Shown here: in pieces, positions 1 through 43,029 of the stretch
Layout of the letters: every line of letters begins with the position of its first letter
Numbering within the stretch: position 1 is the stretch's first letter
Translations under genes and position numbers: made by a program
The notes under the pieces: model-generated
Database searches by the model: none
The model's input: the letters and a program-made list of their open reading frames with translations, nothing else
Told to the model about the DNA's origin: nothing
Assembly: GCF_000787575.1 (NCBI RefSeq)
Contig: NW_012236527.1
Span: 1,193,195 to 1,257,194 of the forward strand
Source: Acytostelium subglobosum LB1
Taxonomy: Eukaryota > Evosea > Eumycetozoa > Acytosteliales > Acytosteliaceae
Direction of reading: 5' to 3'
Length of the DNA: 64,000 nucleotides

Positions 1-3000
1 CTCGATGGTTACCGTGGTCTCCATGGGCTCATTGACAATGGTCATCATTGTCTCGTTGGCGATGAAGTGGACCAGACGGTCGTCAGATGCTGAGCCATCA
101 CGCTTCATGAATCCAATCGAGAACTTGCCAAGTGTGCATGTTGTGATGCCCTTATAGTTGGCTTGGTTAACGTCTTCACCCTCATCTTGGTTTGGCATGG
201 GCTCTGGCGACAGCGGGCCCGGGTCCAAGTCCTCATCGGCCAATGTGTCACCTCGGACACTCGAGGAGAACTCTGAGAGGTTGCCATCGAGCAGGAGAAT
301 GAGACATTTTGACTCGTACTCACTAATGTCCAATTGGAATTGGGAGATGTCGCACGTTCGCTGCCAAGGTGGGAGTGTGCAGGTGCGGCTGGCTGCGGGG
401 TTCAGCAGCATCGGTGTGGCCAAGTGAAGATTGAGGTTCACATCCTTGACCAATGTTCCAAAAGTGCGCGACATTGTTCCCTTGGCTGACTTGGACATCT
501 TTGTGTTGAGACCTGAGAGCAGTTTGATGTTGTTGGCTTCGACAAAGATGTTCATAGTGATGAAGTGTTCCTTTTTCATTGTTGAAGACGAAGCTTCGCA
601 CTCATCACCACCGATGCCTTCCTCCAACTCACGCTCACGCTCGCTGCTGAGTACCATGGCTTCCATGTCGCTGCCATTGACTTGGCCATAGTCAAACCTG
701 TTGGATATGATGATCTTGCCCAGGTCTACGATGAAGACCTGATGCGAGAGTGACGAGATGGGCACGATGACATAGGGGTTATCCACCTCAATCTCGTAGA
801 GAAAGGTGGTACGTGCTTGATAGATTACAGTGGCCGCAGAGCTGATCGATCGCTTGAGGTAGTCACGCATTGTGTTGACACTGTTAAGGAAGTTCTGAAT
901 CTCGTCGATGAAGCGATGAAGGAATACGAAGCGGATGCTGCTCAGACTGCAGCGCAGGAAGTGGACGTTCTTGCGCGACTCAAACTGGAAGTGAACAAGT
1001 GCATTCATCGACTCGGGATGCTCCATCAGTGATGTGGACGATGATTGGAGGAGTGATGAGCGCATGCCAAATGACGACGAGAGTGACGGGGAGTCCGCGA
1101 TGACAAAGGTGTCCTCAGACTCGATGCTTAGACCGCCCGCTGAGGACATGGATGAGTCAGCATTGTTGCCAGTCTTTCGCTCCTTGGTCGTGAAGATTGT
1201 TCGGTAGTTCCTGCCTTCCAATGTCATGTCGTATACCTTTAGCTGGCCGACTTTGCCATTGGTGATTGAATGATAGGCGTTGATGTCTGTCGTGCATTGG
1301 AAGTCGACGATGGATGCCTTCATCAAAGGTGTGTTGGCCTCTGACGTCAGCAACAGTCGCACAAAGGTTACCTTCACCTCGAACCTGTTGTTGATCACTT
1401 GATTGGTGCATGGTGTTGTGCTTCGCCATGATGGTTGCATCATCGCCTCTGTCAAGAAGACATGCTCCTGCTCAGCCTTCTTGGAAGGGCTGCCTTGCTG
1501 GTCGTCTGCAGCACCAGCACCAGCACCTCCCTTCTCAGCCAACTTCTCAATCGTGAGGTTCTGTACAGAGTTGGAGAACTCAATCACACCAGCCACAGTC
1601 TTCTTGTTGAGTATTAGATTGAGTTGCGAGAACTCGATCTTGGAGTCATTGTCCACCTTCTTGTAGAAGGGTGACTCGGGTGAGATCTGTACGAGCGTGA
1701 AGTTGACCGGGTTGAGTGTGTGGACCGGTGCCTTGGCGATTGTGTCCAGTGTGACCTTGGCATTGGTGAAGGCCAGGTAGTTGCCATTACCAGGTGGCTT
1801 CTGGAAGCAGTCCTCCACCCAAAGACCCTTGACACTGAGCGCCATGTAGTTGTCGTAGTAGCGTTGGTTGAACACACCTTCGATACGCCGCAGGTATACC
1901 AGGGCCAGGTTCTGAGCCTGCTGCTCGTTCTCCATTCGCAGATGGACATTGAAACAGTCGACTGAGAAGCGGGCCTCGAGTAGATTGCAGTGCGCGATGT
2001 GTGCGGGGTCGCCCATTATCATCTCGATGGGCTCACCTCCGCTGGCTGCGACGGCGACTGGCGCACCAGCGGGCGTCGATGCTGCCTGGCCCATAGTGAT
2101 GGCCTGGATCACGTTGACAAAGTTGACGTATTGTTGTGAGGATAGATAGAACTCTACCAGGTCCACGCTGGCGTCCAGCTTTAGAGATGTGAGCATCTGA
2201 TTGCGCAGTTTGCTCAGCTTCATCATAAAGCTGGCGTTGAACGGGTTGGCGATGTTCATGCGATATCTGGTCACCTGCTTCAGGTCGGTCCAGTCCTGTT
2301 GTTGTCCGGCCAGCAGCACCTGAATGTGTCGCAGCTTGAAGTTGTACTCGTCGTACAAGTCCACGAGCCAATCGTCTTCGCTCTTGTTGTCATTGTTCTT
2401 GGGGTCGTTGTTGTTGTTGTTGTTGTTGTTTGGATCTTGTGAAGTCAGTGTGTTCTTTGATCGTGGCGTGTGATTGATTGAAAGATGACCAAGATCAAGT
2501 ATGAGTGTGTTGGCTCGATCATTGTTGTGAATGTCGTCGGGGATGAGGATGATGGGGGCCTCGAGATCCATCGTCAGGGACAGTGTGGTCTTGTGTGAGA
2601 TGGCCAGCAGCAATGTCTGCTTGGTCTGTGTCTTGATGTTCTGGATGGTGTCCTGTGCCATCTTGCCAATGTCCTCAAACACGTCGGCGGAAGTACTGTT
2701 TGCGCGGAAGAACTCGACGATCTTGCTAACAAACAATGGATAATATACAATAGTGAGTGGCTTGGACTGTATCGCCACCCTGCAATCAACCTCACTCCCA
2801 GGTGGCAGACTCTCGAACTGTATCTTGAAGAGTGATTGATGTTGCTTCTTTGATAATGATTGTGATTGTGGTTGTTGTTGATGAGGTGCACGTGACCTTC
2901 TGGTGCTCTGAGAGTATATCAACTTGGGGAAGTGTGTGTTGTCGGTGGAGTGATCGATCAGCTCCAGGTTATCGAGTTGTCCATCAAAGTGATAGGAGTC

Positions 3001-4922
3001 CTCCTTGGACTTGAGCGTCAGCTGCAGGTTGTTCAGCTGTAGGATGGCCAGTTCCTTCTTCCTGCGCTCCAAGTGCATCGACACCTTGGATAGACGCAGT
3101 ACAATCAGAGCCTGGAGATTGTTTGAGGTGGCCGCTGTAGATGATCGCATCGCCGCAGCCGAGTTGGCGTCACGGTTCATTGATTGATCGAATCCAATCG
3201 TGTCGTAGATCTCGTTCCATTCGTCTGGTGTCAGCTTCACCACGTCCTTTATGTTGCCCAGCTCATCCTTGGACTGCGCGGTCGTCTGTGATTGTAGAGT
3301 TGGGGATGGTCGCCACCATGATGAGAACCAGCCTCCGCCAGTCGCTGCCGCGACAGTGGGCGACGTCGCGCCACCCTGTTGCTGAAGTTGCTGTTGCTGC
3401 TGTAACTGCTGTTGTCTCAACGCCTCCTCTTTCTTCTTCTTTTGCTCTCGCTCCAGACTATCCTCCTTCTCCATCATCTTGTAGGCAAGACTGCGGAACA
3501 TGACGATGTGCTCGTGGGACAGCTTCCACTCGAGCGCGTTCATCCTGCTCTTCTCAGTCGTGTGCAATGTCTTGCGCTTATGTCGTTTGAACAGCTTGAT
3601 ATACTCCTTCTTGTCGTGCAGGAATTCGAATAAGTAGTCCCAAGACTTGCGGTACCGACTCTCATGGATCTTGCCCACGACCGAGTGAATGGCGTAGGTC
3701 CACCATTGGCGGGGGGCCTCCAACACGGCCTCGTCAGGTCGGTTGGCGCGGAACTCTATGCTCTTCTTGAACAGCGAGAAGCTCTCCATGATGTTGGTGA
3801 TGTCCTGGTATTGCGAGTCGGATAGCGTGACCTGTGCGTCGCGCAGGTCGAGCTGGACAGAGAGTCGCGCAGTCTGTTCGGGCTGCGGCAGGCCACTCTT
3901 GTTGATCGCTGCCTTTAGACATAGTGAAAGGTTTGGTAGGATGTATTGATTGGTGTCCAACGCGGCAACGGATGGTGATTGATCGATTGATTGAGATGAT
4001 GAGGCGTCCACAGGTATCATTGACTTTAGTTGATTGGAGAGATCGTCCAGTGATGTATATTGAAGTTTAGGAGAGTTTGAGTTCCAGTATATCGATAGAT
4101 CTTGTAGATTAATGATCTTATGAATGATTGAGCTTTCATTCTTCAAGAAAGATGGTGTCCAGTTGTCATCGGTTGACTCTGCTCCAAGTCTTCTCATCAT
4201 GATGCCCACTGCGAATGAACTCTGTTGATTGATCAGGGTCAGTCAATGAATGATCATTCATTCATTCATTCATTCATTCTAACTCATGATACATACATCT
4301 TCAAGTCTATCTTCAAACCTGATGTGTAGGGAGTTGATAAAGAGTTGTAGGTTGTCGACTACTGTGGCCAACAATCGACCACTGAATGATGAGTCGTCAC
4401 TGGTTGAGGTTGATGTTGTAGATGTTGATGATGTACCTGTGTTGGATGAAGATGTCATTGCAGAGTTCATCAACTTCTCTCTCAACATCTCTTGTAACAG
4501 TAACTTCTGTTCCTTCTCATCCTGGAACTTCTTGCGATAGTACTGTGCATCAAAGTCTTTACATGGTTCAGCCAGTACATATATTCCATCCAATGATATA
4601 ATAGCAGGTTTGTTCTTGAGCTACACGCAACGACGTAATAACAAGTTATTATGATTGATCGATTGAATGATCGATTGAATGATCGATTGAATGATTGGAA
4701 ACATACTTGATTCCAAGGTATGTGTAATGATAGCTTGCGTACAACAGCCTGTTTGACTATTATACTTGGGAATAGCTTTTGTAATGCAGTCTGTTTGATC
4801 TTGACATCATGGATCACTGCATCACCTGATAATAGACTGAGTTTGACATTATCCTTTGTTAGATCGTCTAAATATTCACCCAAGTATCTCGACAGCAATG
4901 AAGCGGCAAGATGTGACACCAT
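1..4922 (-). CDS. vps13: VPS13-family lipid transfer protein, N-terminal part (partial)
   Basis: VPS13 proteins are very large bridge-like proteins that carry lipids between membranes at organelle contact sites. Three exons are visible: 4922-4707, 4620-4297 and 4221 to the window edge. All join in phase 0, and the last frame stays open to base 1. The start MVSHLAASLLSRYLGEYLDD and the following residues (NVKLSLLSGDAV, LHIPWNQ) are the chorein N-terminal domain that opens the lipid groove. Exon 2 continues the domain (INSLHIRFED). A poly-Asn run lies near 2409-2432. About 1,580 residues are inside the window; family members usually exceed 3,000, so the C-terminal half lies beyond the left edge. 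Dictyostelids have several VPS13 paralogues (TipC among them) and I cannot say which this is. Confidence 0.9.
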
Positions 4923-37042: not shown

Positions 37043-38034
37043 TTATTTATATATACGTATTTGTATCAAACTACATCCCTGAATAATAATGGTGTTTGAT
37101 TGATCATAGGGGGATTGTTGAAAGATTGATTTGGAGGCTCCATTATGGAATTTGGGGGCTCCATTAACAGCACCAACACAATGAATAATGATGTTCCTAG
37201 AATTGGGACCATTGAGTGAAATTTGTCGATAATAGACATAGGGGAACTGCTCGTTCACTTCGTGTTGAATGTTTCCACACTTAGAACAATCACACACGTA
37301 TCGATGATTGATTGAAACAACTGGAATTAGGTTGTTGAAATACTCATGTTGAAACTCTTGGAGTTGTTTGAGTTCTTGTTGAAGCCTTGTTAACTCTTTG
37401 ACACTCGCATTAGTGCTATGTGGTGGTAAACCAGGGAGTTCCAATTTCAATTGTTGGATACTATTGATGTATTCATTGATCTCCATGTTGACCTTTTCGA
37501 TATTATGGTTAACTTGTTGTATGATTGTGTCGGGGATTGCTCCACCATAGGCGTCACAATAGATATATGCACTTGGAGGAATATGTTCTGGATGATTGAC
37601 TTCTTTGTATCCAATATAATCAAACAGAATAACGGACTTGACACCAGCTTGGATCCATCGACACATCCTAATCTTTAGTTCTTGGAGAATGTCAATCTTT
37701 GATCTAACCTCAACAAGAAAGTCAGGAAGTGAGGTAGATGGCCAGTCATTATCTTTAATATCATTGGGGAGTGCTTGATACCTTGAATGCGATATGAATG
37801 CTGTCTCTGGTATACTGTTTTGCAAGTTAGTTATTAGTAGTAGTTGATATTAGTATTGAACATTAATACTACTTACCGAATGAAAAGAAATCGATGATTG
37901 TGAGGTGGTATCATCATTTCGATCCTGAAATTTGTCGCTTGACCTACAGTATGTCCTCCAATATTATTCTCTACATTCCATTGGGTAAGTTGTCGGTTGA
38001 ACTCAGACACTTGTACTCCCCTTGACAGTGACAT
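37043..38034 (-). CDS. Uma2-like (PD-(D/E)XK nuclease fold) protein, probably 5'-incomplete
   Basis: Exons 38034-37877 and 37814-37043 give 309 residues from the first ATG (MSLSRGVQVSEFNRQL). The pattern NRQLTQWNVENNIGGHTVG, IPETAFISHSRYQAL, LPDFLVEVRSKIDILQELK, KMxxW-like IRMCRWIQAGVKSVILFDY matches bacterial Uma2/DUF820 proteins, whose core is a restriction-endonuclease-like fold. The first metal-binding Asp of the usual PD motif is Glu here; the later D-x4-E (DFLVEV) is kept. After about residue 150 comes a coiled-coil-prone part (LTRLQQELKQLQEFQHEY) and a C-x-C-x2-C motif (VCDCSKCG). The frame stays open upstream of the ATG (LVEVDINLQTLQFYITIKD) up to the ankyrin junction, so the true N-terminus may be lost. 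Nuclease activity is not shown. Confidence 0.65.
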
Positions 38035-38084
38035 GTCTTTGATTGTAATGTAAAACTGGAGAGTTTGTAGGTTAATGTCAACCT

Positions 38085-40362
38085 CTACCAGTTTGACTGA
38101 TACTTTGGGAGTGTATGGACATTCATCAAATCAAGTGTTGCACCAATATTAACCAAATGACTAATCATTGCAATGTGATTCTTATCAATTAGATCATTGA
38201 TCTTGATTGGACCTTCCTTGAGTTTATCAGAAACAGTCCAATCATGAGTGATATTTGATTGATTGATCATCCAATCCAATGTCTCAATATGTCCAATATT
38301 GATTGCTTCACTAAATAATATATCAATATCTCGTGGGTATAAAGGATCGACATTCCAAAGATACTCCAGTAGTTCAATGTTGCCATACCTAACGGCGATG
38401 ATGTGATGTTGCTTGGTTCCCACGTACACTCTGTGTCGTGAGTAAATGTGCTTGACGAGGTCAACACGATGATTGAGGATGGCAGACTCCAACACAATGG
38501 TCACAAACAATCGACTTTGCGCCTTCTTGTCCTCCATGAAGTTGGCAATGTACTCCAAGATAATCAAACATGTCCAAATCTCCAAAGAGTCCACTTTTGA
38601 TCATATTCGTGTCAGTGCCAAACTTGAGCACTCGATGATTGCCAAACAGTTTGATGACATCCAAGCTACGACTTGTTGAATATTTGTCATTGGCCATTTT
38701 ATCCCCTATTGTCTTCTTGATACAATTATGTGGAGCACGATCAATGAGTGCCTGGAGCAAGTCGGCTCGACCATAGAATGCCACTACCTGAACCATGAGT
38801 GCAAAGTTGGTCCTGCCAAGAAGCTCGGGATGGTCTCGGATCAATTGTTCAATGTGGTGGAGCTGGAGGACGACATTTCCCATCTCGGTACATAGGCTAT
38901 GGTAGTTTGAACCAGACATTAAACAATATTTCAAACTTTGTGTTCCTCGGAAATAATCTTCTTCATGGTCCTTGGGAATTGGTCGATGATTCCTGTTCTT
39001 GCTGATGAAGTATTGGATGATTGGATGACTCTTTGTCATGTCATTGGCCTTTACAAAATTGTTGAACAATGAATAATAAAATGAATTTGATGGGAATGAT
39101 GATGCTGGTGTTGGACGATTCTCGTCATCTTGAGGCAGACTCTCAAACATATTGTTCAAGATCTCGTATGATACCAGTGCCTGGATAATATTGCCTTGTA
39201 TGATAATCAGCCTGAAAAGTTCATTAACATCTCCAACAGTATTGTGAAATCTTGTTGGGGGCCACTTGATGTGAGTGGATATCATGTGTGGCAAGAGCAT
39301 GTAGTCACCAGTGATGATGTATTGGGAGACGGTGTACGAGGCCAGTCCAAGTTCATCACGAATATCACCCTTCAAATCAATCGCCAGATTGTTGAGTTTG
39401 ACAAAGATCGTACGTGCATCATCGCCAATGTCCAGTCCATGATGATCAATGTACTCTTTCGGGATTGATATCTTCGTCACTCGCTCTTTTGACTTTGCAA
39501 TCACATCGCTCGTCTCGGCCGAGGTGGCGGTTGTGGAGTTTGGCAACATTCGTTGGAAGTGTGCCAGTTGCTCAGCTGGTGGGAAGTCGAAGGGCAACAA
39601 CATCTTACTTGTGATGGGTCCTCCAAACAGCCTGACTCCATCCTTGAACATTAGATCATTGATCAGTTGTAGATCTCCTTTCAACATCAGATCGAATACA
39701 TATTGATTGGCAAGTGACTTGATATGATCAATGAGTGGTTGTGGAAAGTGGCCTAGATCAAGTATATGTCGAATGGACGAGGGAGGTGCCCTGTACACTT
39801 TGTCCCAGTACATCTGATCACTTTCATTCACCTTCTGCCACAAGATGCTGTTGTTAAACAGTCCAGAGTCCATAAAGTACTTGAGCACACTGAAGCCATC
39901 GCCCAACAATGCAAACTTGAGTAACAGATCGACTCGTTCAAAGGTCACGGGATAGGTCTGATGGAACAATGTCTTCACGACAACCAAATTATCATGTTTG
40001 ATTGCATTGTAATATGAATTGCTCTTGTCAAAGTATGATTGATATCTCTTGTACACAGTGTCGAATGTATCCTGATCAATGTTTCTTGAAATACATATGG
40101 ACAAGACGGCATTGTGGTCAAAGTTGATGTGTAGGCCACGTTTGATTCGATCACGTATCAGACCATAATGTTTGTATTCGATCATTAGTTTGGCGTCCAC
40201 CCAGTCATTGTACTTTGTCCTAAGTCCACTGTTCTTGCTATGGATATATAACTTGTACCTCCAATGTGTAAGAATCGCGCGAATCGACTCAAAGATGGTT
40301 CTCACCAATGTTCGATTAGTCAACACATGAACTATTACACCTCGATCACCAATGCTGTTCAT
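38085..40362 (-). pseudogene. ankyrin-like repeat family, paralogue 6 (frame break and lost tail)
   Basis: It starts MNSIGDRGVIVHVLTNRTLV at 40362 (upstream frame is TTG only) and follows the family order through KYNDWVDAKLMIEYKHYGLI, NIDQDTFDTVYKRYQSYF and FSVLKYFMDSGLFN. At 38555-38562 the frame shifts by one base, within LDMFDY/LEYIANF, and continues in the next frame to 38085. The C-terminus ends abruptly after TLPKYQSN at a stop; the expected SIQS-AQYK-QR tail is absent. Directly beyond this point the DNA encodes Uma2-like sequence in another frame. Two independent defects make a pseudogene the best call, although the frame break alone could be an assembly error. Confidence 0.65.
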
Positions 40363-40586
40363 TATGTAAGTGTGATTGAGTGATCCAAGGATTGGTGTGA
40401 TCAAGTGATGGGTTGTGTTGTGATTGTGTGATTAATGATTGAGTGATCGAGTGATCAAGAGATTGAAATGATCAAGTGATTAGATTGATTCGAGAGTTAT
40501 TTGTTGTTGAAGCGGGTGATTGAATAGTCAGGGAGGGACAAACTTCGAAGTATAATATTTTTTGATCATTATTATTATTATCCATT

Positions 40587-43029
40587 TTATTTCTTTCTGG
40601 ATTGTTTACTTGGACGAGGATTTGAGCTGGACGATCGACGCTTGAGGGTATTGTTTTGCTGCGCCCTTTGATCCTTGTACTGCGCTATGAATGATTGAAT
40701 TCCTGGATTGGACTGGTATGTCTTAAGATTGTGAATGGACCTCAAATCCAGTACTCCACCATTGTCAATCAGATGACGCAACATTGGTATGTCATTATTT
40801 CCAATTGCTTCCTTAATGTTGATTGGACCTGCCATAAGCTGTGCACTTGTATCATCATCAACATGATTGAGTAGCCACACCAATGATCCAATTTGGCCAG
40901 TGTTGATGGCCTTGTTGAACAACTCCTCCACCTCTTCATAATTCTCTACTGGCTCCACTTCCCAGAGATAAGCCAACAGCTCGACATGGCCAAGACTAAC
41001 AGCAGTACTGTGATGTTTGATCAAATGGATCTTGCTGCCTTTGTGCGAGTAGATGTGCTTGACCATGTCAACCTGTCCCCACTTAATGGCTTGCTCGACC
41101 ACCACAGAGAATGGAATGACTGTGATTGGACCATCTGCTCCATTATTAAGTTGCTTATTGAACAAACTGGGCATGTTGGCCATGACGATATCCAATAGAC
41201 CACAGTCGCCACGCCTTGCCAACAGTTCAATGATTGATTTCTTGGGGATCAATCCTTTCTTGGCAAACATCTTGATCGCCTCGGAATTTCCAAATGTAAT
41301 GAGAGTGTAATTGAGTAACTTTCTCATTCGCTTAAGATTGGGAAGTGGGATTTGATTGAGAAGTGAACTAAGTATGTCCATGCGGCCATTGATCAACGCA
41401 CATTGTACCAGTGGCTCCAGTGATGTATCAAGCTTGAGTAGCGTGGGTTTGAACTTGAGTATGTACTCAATGTGGTTGATGTCCAGAACTAGATTGTTCA
41501 ACACCTGCTCCTTTGTGAATATCTTTATCTCATCAGAGAGCAGGAACCTGAGCACCCCAATCGGGCAGTGGAGTGCCTTGGGGTCGTCATGGCCCATACC
41601 GGCCTGCACCACCTTACATTGGTTCAACATAAGGATGACCTCTATGCTGCTGACCCAGTTGTCGGCCTTGATGAATGAGTTGAACATCTCACTGCCAAAG
41701 TAACTGTTTTTGTCTAAGGCCTCCCCGCCTGCCTCCTCAGTGTTCTCCACGATGTTTAAAATGCGAGCAAAAAATGGAAACGACCTGCTTGATGGTGCCA
41801 TGCTTGATGACCATTTCAATCAACTTTGCAGTGTCACTTTGTATGGTGGAAGTTCTTGCCCATTGTCGTCGGTGGATGAAGAAGTATTGGAGCATAGCAC
41901 AGTCTCCAGTCTTGATGTATTCGCGCATGATGTACTCGCCAAGCTTGTCAAAGTGTTGCGACCAATCGATAAGGATCTCGCTCAATTTGATGAAGACCAA
42001 TCGTTGATCAGGTCCAATGTCCACATGTTGTGTGCCCGGACACACATACATCTTCCACGCATCATTGAAGGATTCAAGTATCATCCTTGCCTGATCATTC
42101 AATTCCTCATCCTCGGGAATGATTCGTTCAAAGTGCGCCAGTTGATCAGCTGGTGTGACACTTTGTGGGTGCATCCAATCACTCGAGACTTGCGCCCAAA
42201 ACAGTTTCTTGCCATCCTTGAAGAGGAGTTTATCGATCAATTGCTGATCACCTTGGGCAATCAAGAGATCCGGGTGATGTGGTGCACGGGCTTTGATCTT
42301 GTCGATGAGTACTTGTGGAAAGTTGGCGGGATCCAGGATAAATCGGATTGCCGAGGGAGATGCACTGAACACCCAGTACCAAGAGTAGTTGCGTGTCCAG
42401 AGCACGCTATTGTCAAACAATCCCGAGTCCATAAGGTACTTGAGCATCTTGAATGTTTTATCACATGATAGTGCGGCATCCTCCAGTCGCTGAGGGTCCC
42501 TGTCAAAGGTTACAGGAACAGTCTGGTGCAACAGGGTTTGCACAACAATCATGTTATCACTTTTGATCGCCTCAGCATATGCCTCTGTCTTTATAAAGAA
42601 TGATTGATAGCGAGTGTAGACGGCCATGAATGTGTCCCTATCAATGTCCTTGGCGGCGCAGACGTCAAATGCTGAGTCAAAGGTGAAGTTTAGGGGATGT
42701 CCTTGTTGCATGCGGTAGCGTAGCAGACCCCAATGTTTGTGACGAATGATTGATGATGCGTCACGCCAGTGATCCATCTTTGTTCGCAGGCCATTGTCCG
42801 GGTCATTGATGTGTATTCTTAACTGTTTGTACAACGACTTGCTCTTGAATGCATTCATTATAGTCCTTATCAATGTACGATTTGTAAGAACATGCATGAT
42901 AACTCCACGATCATTGATATAATGTTGAGATGACTTTGACATTGTCGTTGTCGTTGTCGTTGTGGTTGGCATCATCAATGTAATATCATTGTTATTATTA
43001 CTATTAATATTTATATTATTATATGTCAT
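40587..43029 (-). CDS. ankyrin-like repeat family protein, paralogue 7 (one frame break)
   Basis: The upstream part (43029-41737) has a poly-N/T head, the leader VIMHVLTNRTLIRTIM, TKMDHWRDASSIIRHKHWGL, DIDRDTFMAVYTRYQSFF and the following blocks to HGTIKQVVSIF. The downstream part (to 40587) carries ARILNIVENTEEAGG through MLRHLIDNGGVLDL, SFIAQYKDQRAQQN and a basic end (RPSKQSRKK). The two overlap around an A run of six (41769-41774, + strand). With one base fewer they join as SIFARILNIV, as paralogues predict. Otherwise the gene is complete, about 810 residues. Sequencing error or recent inactivation are both possible. Confidence 0.75.

Follow-up and report, generated by a model that had tools for sequence, protein, structure and literature searches.

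On the minus strand of a 64,000-nucleotide stretch of the Acytostelium subglobosum genome (hereafter the window; G+C content 44.1%), an ankyrin-like gene of an array is followed, two bases after its homology to its relatives ends, by a gene resembling the bacterial nuclease family Uma2. This arrangement raises the question of whether the two parts encode one ankyrin-nuclease protein, whether a mobile nuclease has settled in the array, or whether the locus records damage to its two genes. The last is the reading we favor, with a probability of roughly 0.75: illegitimate recombination damaged two neighbouring genes, leaving a 5'-truncated Uma2-like relic behind a frame-broken ankyrin-like gene.

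The ankyrin-like gene and the junction

The span singled out by a sequence-only reading of the window (37043-40362) takes in the Uma2-like gene together with almost the full length of ankyrin-like paralogue 6, the ORF of which starts at 40404. The features of the locus are listed below in window coordinates.

38461..40404, minus strand: first of the two ORFs of ankyrin-like paralogue 6, in frame A; from the ORF list and tblastn with ank5, ank4, L012, L013, L015 and L016
38085..38594, minus strand: second of the two ORFs of ankyrin-like paralogue 6, in frame B, past the frame break; from the ORF list and tblastn
38089..38090, minus strand: junction, two bases of neither gene family; from the limits of ankyrin and Uma2-family homology
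38035..38088, minus strand: VEVDINLQTLQFYITIKD, formerly part of the Uma2-family coding region and now ahead of the first in-frame ATG
37877..38034, minus strand: what is left of exon 1 in the Uma2-like gene, starting at the first ATG
37815..37876, minus strand: 62-base phase-2 intron, GTAAGT...CAG; a phase-2 intron lies there in six of the eight other copies
37043..37814, minus strand: exon 2, with the rest of the Uma2-like domain, a coiled-coil-like region, the family C-terminal domain (...NIIIHCVGAVNG) and an aberrant extension
37129..37166, no strand assigned: a direct repeat of 17 bases in two copies, 21 bases apart, from a repeat search; the C terminus leaves the family pattern there

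Paralogue 6 could be aligned to its relatives across nearly its whole length; the Pfam ankyrin profiles remained below their curated cut-offs, with Ank_3 reaching 21.0 bits on the paralogue 6 tail (cut-off 22.3) and Ank_2 reaching 20.2 and 20.4 bits on paralogues 5 and 4, respectively (cut-off 27.3). A Pfam scan of the first ORF of paralogue 6 gave no ankyrin match. The gene occupies two frames that overlap, and is broken near 38,560, a feature absent from the sequence-only reading: frame A retains homology to the relatives until about 38,560, and frame B ends in TLPKYQSNW followed by a TAG at 38087-38085. Two ank5 alignments overlap at the break by about ten bases, so that there is no room for an intron. 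Within its own array family, paralogue 6 differs from paralogues 5 and 7, which possess a tail, by lacking the tail and carrying the frame break.

With three of the six ankyrin-like query relatives (ank5, L013 and L015) the alignments end at 38091 with ...TLPKYQSN, and paralogue 6 does match its relatives up to this motif and then stop, as had been proposed. The ank4 alignment ends earlier, at 38253, and those of L012 and L016 continue beyond the TAG with residues of low identity; an ankyrin tail extending past the junction was rejected, these residues being taken for chance. With paralogue 5 as a ruler, the last ~25 codons of paralogue 6 are lost. On the other side of the junction, the nearest Uma2-like paralogue, L003 on contig C54, aligns with its residues from 82 onwards, starting at 38088 (VEVDINLQTLQFYITIKD; tblastn E 6e-8), and the coding-like stretch noticed in another frame before the ATG at 38034 is thus real family homology. 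Measured against L003, about 80 codons of the Uma2-like gene are gone together with its upstream region. From these homology limits, a sharp junction appears to have taken off both the ankyrin tail and the Uma2 start. The insertion of a Uma2 piece into the ankyrin gene was rejected, as the tail would then be expected at 36.7-37.1 kb, downstream of the Uma2-like gene, where it was not found in a search that can miss a tail of 25 residues.

The earlier suggestion of a chimeric ankyrin-nuclease was not supported, as no continuous frame unites the two parts and no splice-joined one with a good donor was found. The ankyrin frame reaching the junction closes at the TAG, and the Uma2 frame is a different one, open upstream of its first ATG (38034) to a TGA at 38133. 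Across the junction, 45 frame-compatible GT-AG pairs were found, 40-259 bases apart, and the best donors among the best 25 of these are GTCATT and GTTAAT, unlike the GTAAGT/GTATGT-like donors of the family; fusion by splicing was rejected, as these 25 pairs include no good donor. The two parts do lie on the same strand with only two bases between their homologies, and the first ankyrin ORF (38461-40404) shares its frame with the ATG at 38034, although this ORF stops at 38461. Given the TAG and the poor donors, a chimera produced by splicing or frameshifting over the junction is highly improbable.

A bacterial-type Uma2 family in a social amoeba

On the minus strand, exon 1 of the Uma2-like gene runs from 38088, the intron from 37876 to 37815 and exon 2 to 37043, and the 309-residue product predicted by the sequence-only reading is obtained from the ATG at 38034 once the 62-base intron is excised. 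The spliced protein scored 24.4 bits (E 2.3e-5) against Uma2 (PF05685), which bears out the proposed similarity while falling below the curated cut-off of 27 bits. Among the other copies scanned, L007 (34.6 bits) and L004 (36.5 bits) passed the cut-off, L005 (25.7 bits) and L001 (23.4 bits) stayed under it and L003 gave no match. A six-frame genome scan with Uma2 returned L001 only, under the cut-off, and the window copy was absent from its results. A profile built from seven copies, including that of the window, matched the solved Uma2 protein 1wdj (TT1808) with an E-value of 2.7e-12. When L004 was compared with plasmid records, two matches were obtained, both cyanobacterial and annotated as Uma2 family endonucleases (28.2% and 30.9% identity); no match was found among phage records. 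In the available text of PMC1913061, DUF820 and 1wdj are tied to the PD-(D/E)XK nuclease superfamily.

The AlphaFold2 model of L004 (8 alignment rows) is of low confidence, with a mean pLDDT of 59. A Foldseek search with this model gave weak matches, in which Uma2-type structures came up amid unrelated chains, 9y1l at ranks 1 and 3 (E 0.08 at best) and 3ot2 at rank 11 (E 0.75), with none of 220 matches at E 0.001. The coiled-coil part of the window copy also matched the V-SNARE N-terminus profile (PF05008; 20.7 bits, E 6e-4, cut-off 25.9), which with exon 2 alone scored higher than Uma2 (21.1 versus 18.5 bits); a V-SNARE identity was rejected, the score being below cut-off and taken for coiled-coil likeness. 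Copies in which the residues are intact are probably PD-(D/E)XK-type nucleases descended from a bacterial Uma2. Compared with Uma2/DUF820 (PF05685), the amoeba proteins are longer at the N terminus by an added segment, contain a coiled-coil-like region and end in a NIIIHCxGxVNG domain, and most of their genes have a spliceosomal intron; the window copy further differs by its sub-threshold Pfam score and two altered active-site-like residues.

The genome (30.7 Mb in 56 contigs) is that of a dictyostelid, as shown by matches to the Dictyostelium STAT coiled-coil family at six places, all above the cut-off, against none in 14 control genomes. At least nine Uma2-like loci were found in it: the window copy, L001, L003-L008 (L008 and L009 being one locus) and L055. 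The N-terminal segment, with variants such as PVATPIDISP (L005), PVSTTINITP (L003), PVSCPMDVSP (L004) and PISSEIDVSP (L055), is present in all eight other copies and missing only from that of the window. The suggested loss of the 5' end of the Uma2-like gene at the ankyrin gene is thereby supported. A phase-2 intron just before the PD motif is shared by the window copy, L003, L005, L006, L007, L008 and L055; L004 has no intron there, and L001 lacks the region preceding the intron site. Signs of decay are found elsewhere in the family: L004 has an in-frame TAA, L001 has an internal loss, L055 changes frame late and lacks the Lys, and L003 has a gap of about 16 residues. In the Uma2-like copy on contig C56 (L059, 3351-3518 and 2307-3350, minus strand), an in-frame TAA separates the start from the remainder of the domain, and the intron before the PD motif is absent.

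Two genome searches with exon 1 produced no piece completing the window copy and left three weak matches (E 0.27-0.72). In the one of these examined, on contig C46, the ORF covers all of exon 1, including the part retained in the window. This ORF (L061, 1566-2063, plus strand) resembles only Uma2-like exon 1, by eye (E 0.29), and about 200 bases away lies an opposite-strand ORF (2268-3743, minus strand) that is ankyrin-like by eye. A comparison of the 4-kb L061 stretch with eight family proteins gave nothing at E 0.01, the remainder of a Uma2-like gene not being found, and we only tentatively regard L061 as a tenth Uma2-like place. The conserved C-terminal domain (YFxxLxP...NIIIHCxGxVNG) follows the coiled-coil-like region in L003-L008 and L055, and no Pfam family was found over it in the copies scanned (window, L001, L003, L004, L005 and L007).

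The idea of a mobile nuclease was likewise not upheld. In blastn comparisons of nine stretches of 3.2-4.0 kb, similarity was confined to the genes or to within about 12 bases of them, with no shared DNA flanks, and no terminal repeats were seen around the window copy (36.5-38.7 kb), where the one inverted pair (21 bases, 81%) has an arm within exon 2. A mobile element was rejected on both grounds. What is of some interest is that a social amoeba carries a bacterial-type Uma2 family of nine or more copies, dispersed and in part decaying, with a spliceosomal intron shared by most copies and extensions at both ends. No description of a social-amoeba Uma2 family was found among the open-access titles examined.

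Putative active-site residues and constraint in the window copy

Alignment with 1wdj identified four active-site-like positions: Glu (WER), Asp (PD), Glu (EVR) and Lys (KM). We take these columns to be the active site from that alignment and general knowledge of PD-(D/E)XK enzymes. The PD is present in seven of nine copies (exceptions: window, E; L008, S), the Lys in seven of nine (window, R; L055, missing) and the second Glu in eight of nine (L003, D). In the window copy, the first Glu lies upstream of the ATG, PD is replaced by PE, VEVR is retained and KM reads RM, with a Lys two residues before the altered position. The full set of Glu, PD, Glu and Lys expected of a PD-(D/E)XK active site is hence not found, and the window copy probably cuts no DNA. 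The upstream Glu (codon 38085-38083, within 38035..38088) is invariant in 7/7 sequences in one family alignment, the column match coming from this alignment only, as two others gap the window copy and L003 differently there.

The stretch before the ATG is 11/18 identical to L003, one pair being an unrelated leading residue, compared with 92/257 for the remainder (Fisher p 0.04; a match at least as good is found in 37 of 258 segments of 18 residues). This stretch has not decayed, which points either to a junction formed recently in comparison with the split from L003 or to continued translation of the stretch. For window and L003 we estimated dN 0.65 and dS 1.47, a ratio of about 0.44, and for the comparison pair L005-L006 a ratio of about 0.22, both rough with distances near saturation. 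Of the reference-invariant columns, 14/45 are changed in the window copy with 10 further gapped, a state like that of L003 (20/55), L004 (36/91) and L007 (25/80); fewer are changed in L005 (4/59) and L008 (9/64), two copies closely related to members of the reference set. Constraint has acted over most of the window copy's history. Its C terminus ceases to match the family past GAVNG, next to the 21-base-spaced duplication.

Origin of the junction

From the directly observed homology limits, absent N-terminal segment, frames and changed residues, we infer that a deletion took place, that it happened recently in comparison with the split from L003, and that it left the window copy as a non-functional or catalytically dead relic. 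Illegitimate recombination between co-directional neighbours, most simply a deletion, would have removed the last ~25 codons of paralogue 6 and the intergenic DNA, as well as the promoter and the first ~80 codons of the Uma2-like gene. The junction would then be an ordinary birth-and-death event within a gene array. Against a relic speak the frame from 38034, which is open through 309 codons, the window-L003 dN/dS, which indicates long constraint, and the likeness to L003, L004 and L007 at invariant columns. The best overall reading is a fairly young relic in a partly decaying Uma2 family.

The same observations bear on whether the truncated gene has kept its expression, driven by a cryptic promoter within the ankyrin gene or read as a second cistron, and yields a catalytically inactive 309-residue protein keeping its coiled-coil-like and C-terminal domains. 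The open codons, a normal-looking intron and a dN/dS below 1 against L003 count in favour of this. Genes in the array are tightly spaced (gaps of 97 and 182 bp), so that a distance of 50 bases from the ankyrin stop to the Uma2 start is small, though not implausible. The G+C content of these 50 bases is 34%, between the mean of the gaps (33%) and the lower limit seen in coding windows (34.6%), and does not discriminate for a promoter. However, the Uma2 frame is closed at 38133 and no earlier ATG was found up to 38034 (ATG codons only), the product would lack its first strand-like stretch and end in an aberrant C terminus, and all constraint may be older than the junction. We therefore consider continued expression unlikely. 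It is very doubtful that the junction now places a dead Uma2-like protein under the ankyrin-array promoter, as a regulator or decoy acting through its coiled-coil-like and C-terminal domains.

The deletion has also to be weighed against an assembly artefact, in which the ankyrin tail and the 5' end of the Uma2-like gene went missing through a collapse or misjoin. A misassembly of this kind would look the same as a deletion, and base errors might account for the frame breaks in both paralogues 6 and 7, whereas the completing 5' piece was not found elsewhere in the genome, two weak matches aside, itself a weak point since a dropped stretch would be equally unfindable. We regard an artefact as distinctly unlikely. 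Paralogue 7 likewise shifts frame mid-gene, on the minus strand near 41.7-41.8 kb (41,690-41,790), and the mid-gene changes in paralogues 6 (38,500-38,600) and 7 may be either decay or assembly base errors. A 17-base direct repeat (94%) occurs at 37610-37626 in Uma2 exon 2 and at 38554-38570 at the paralogue 6 frame break, which may be due to chance.
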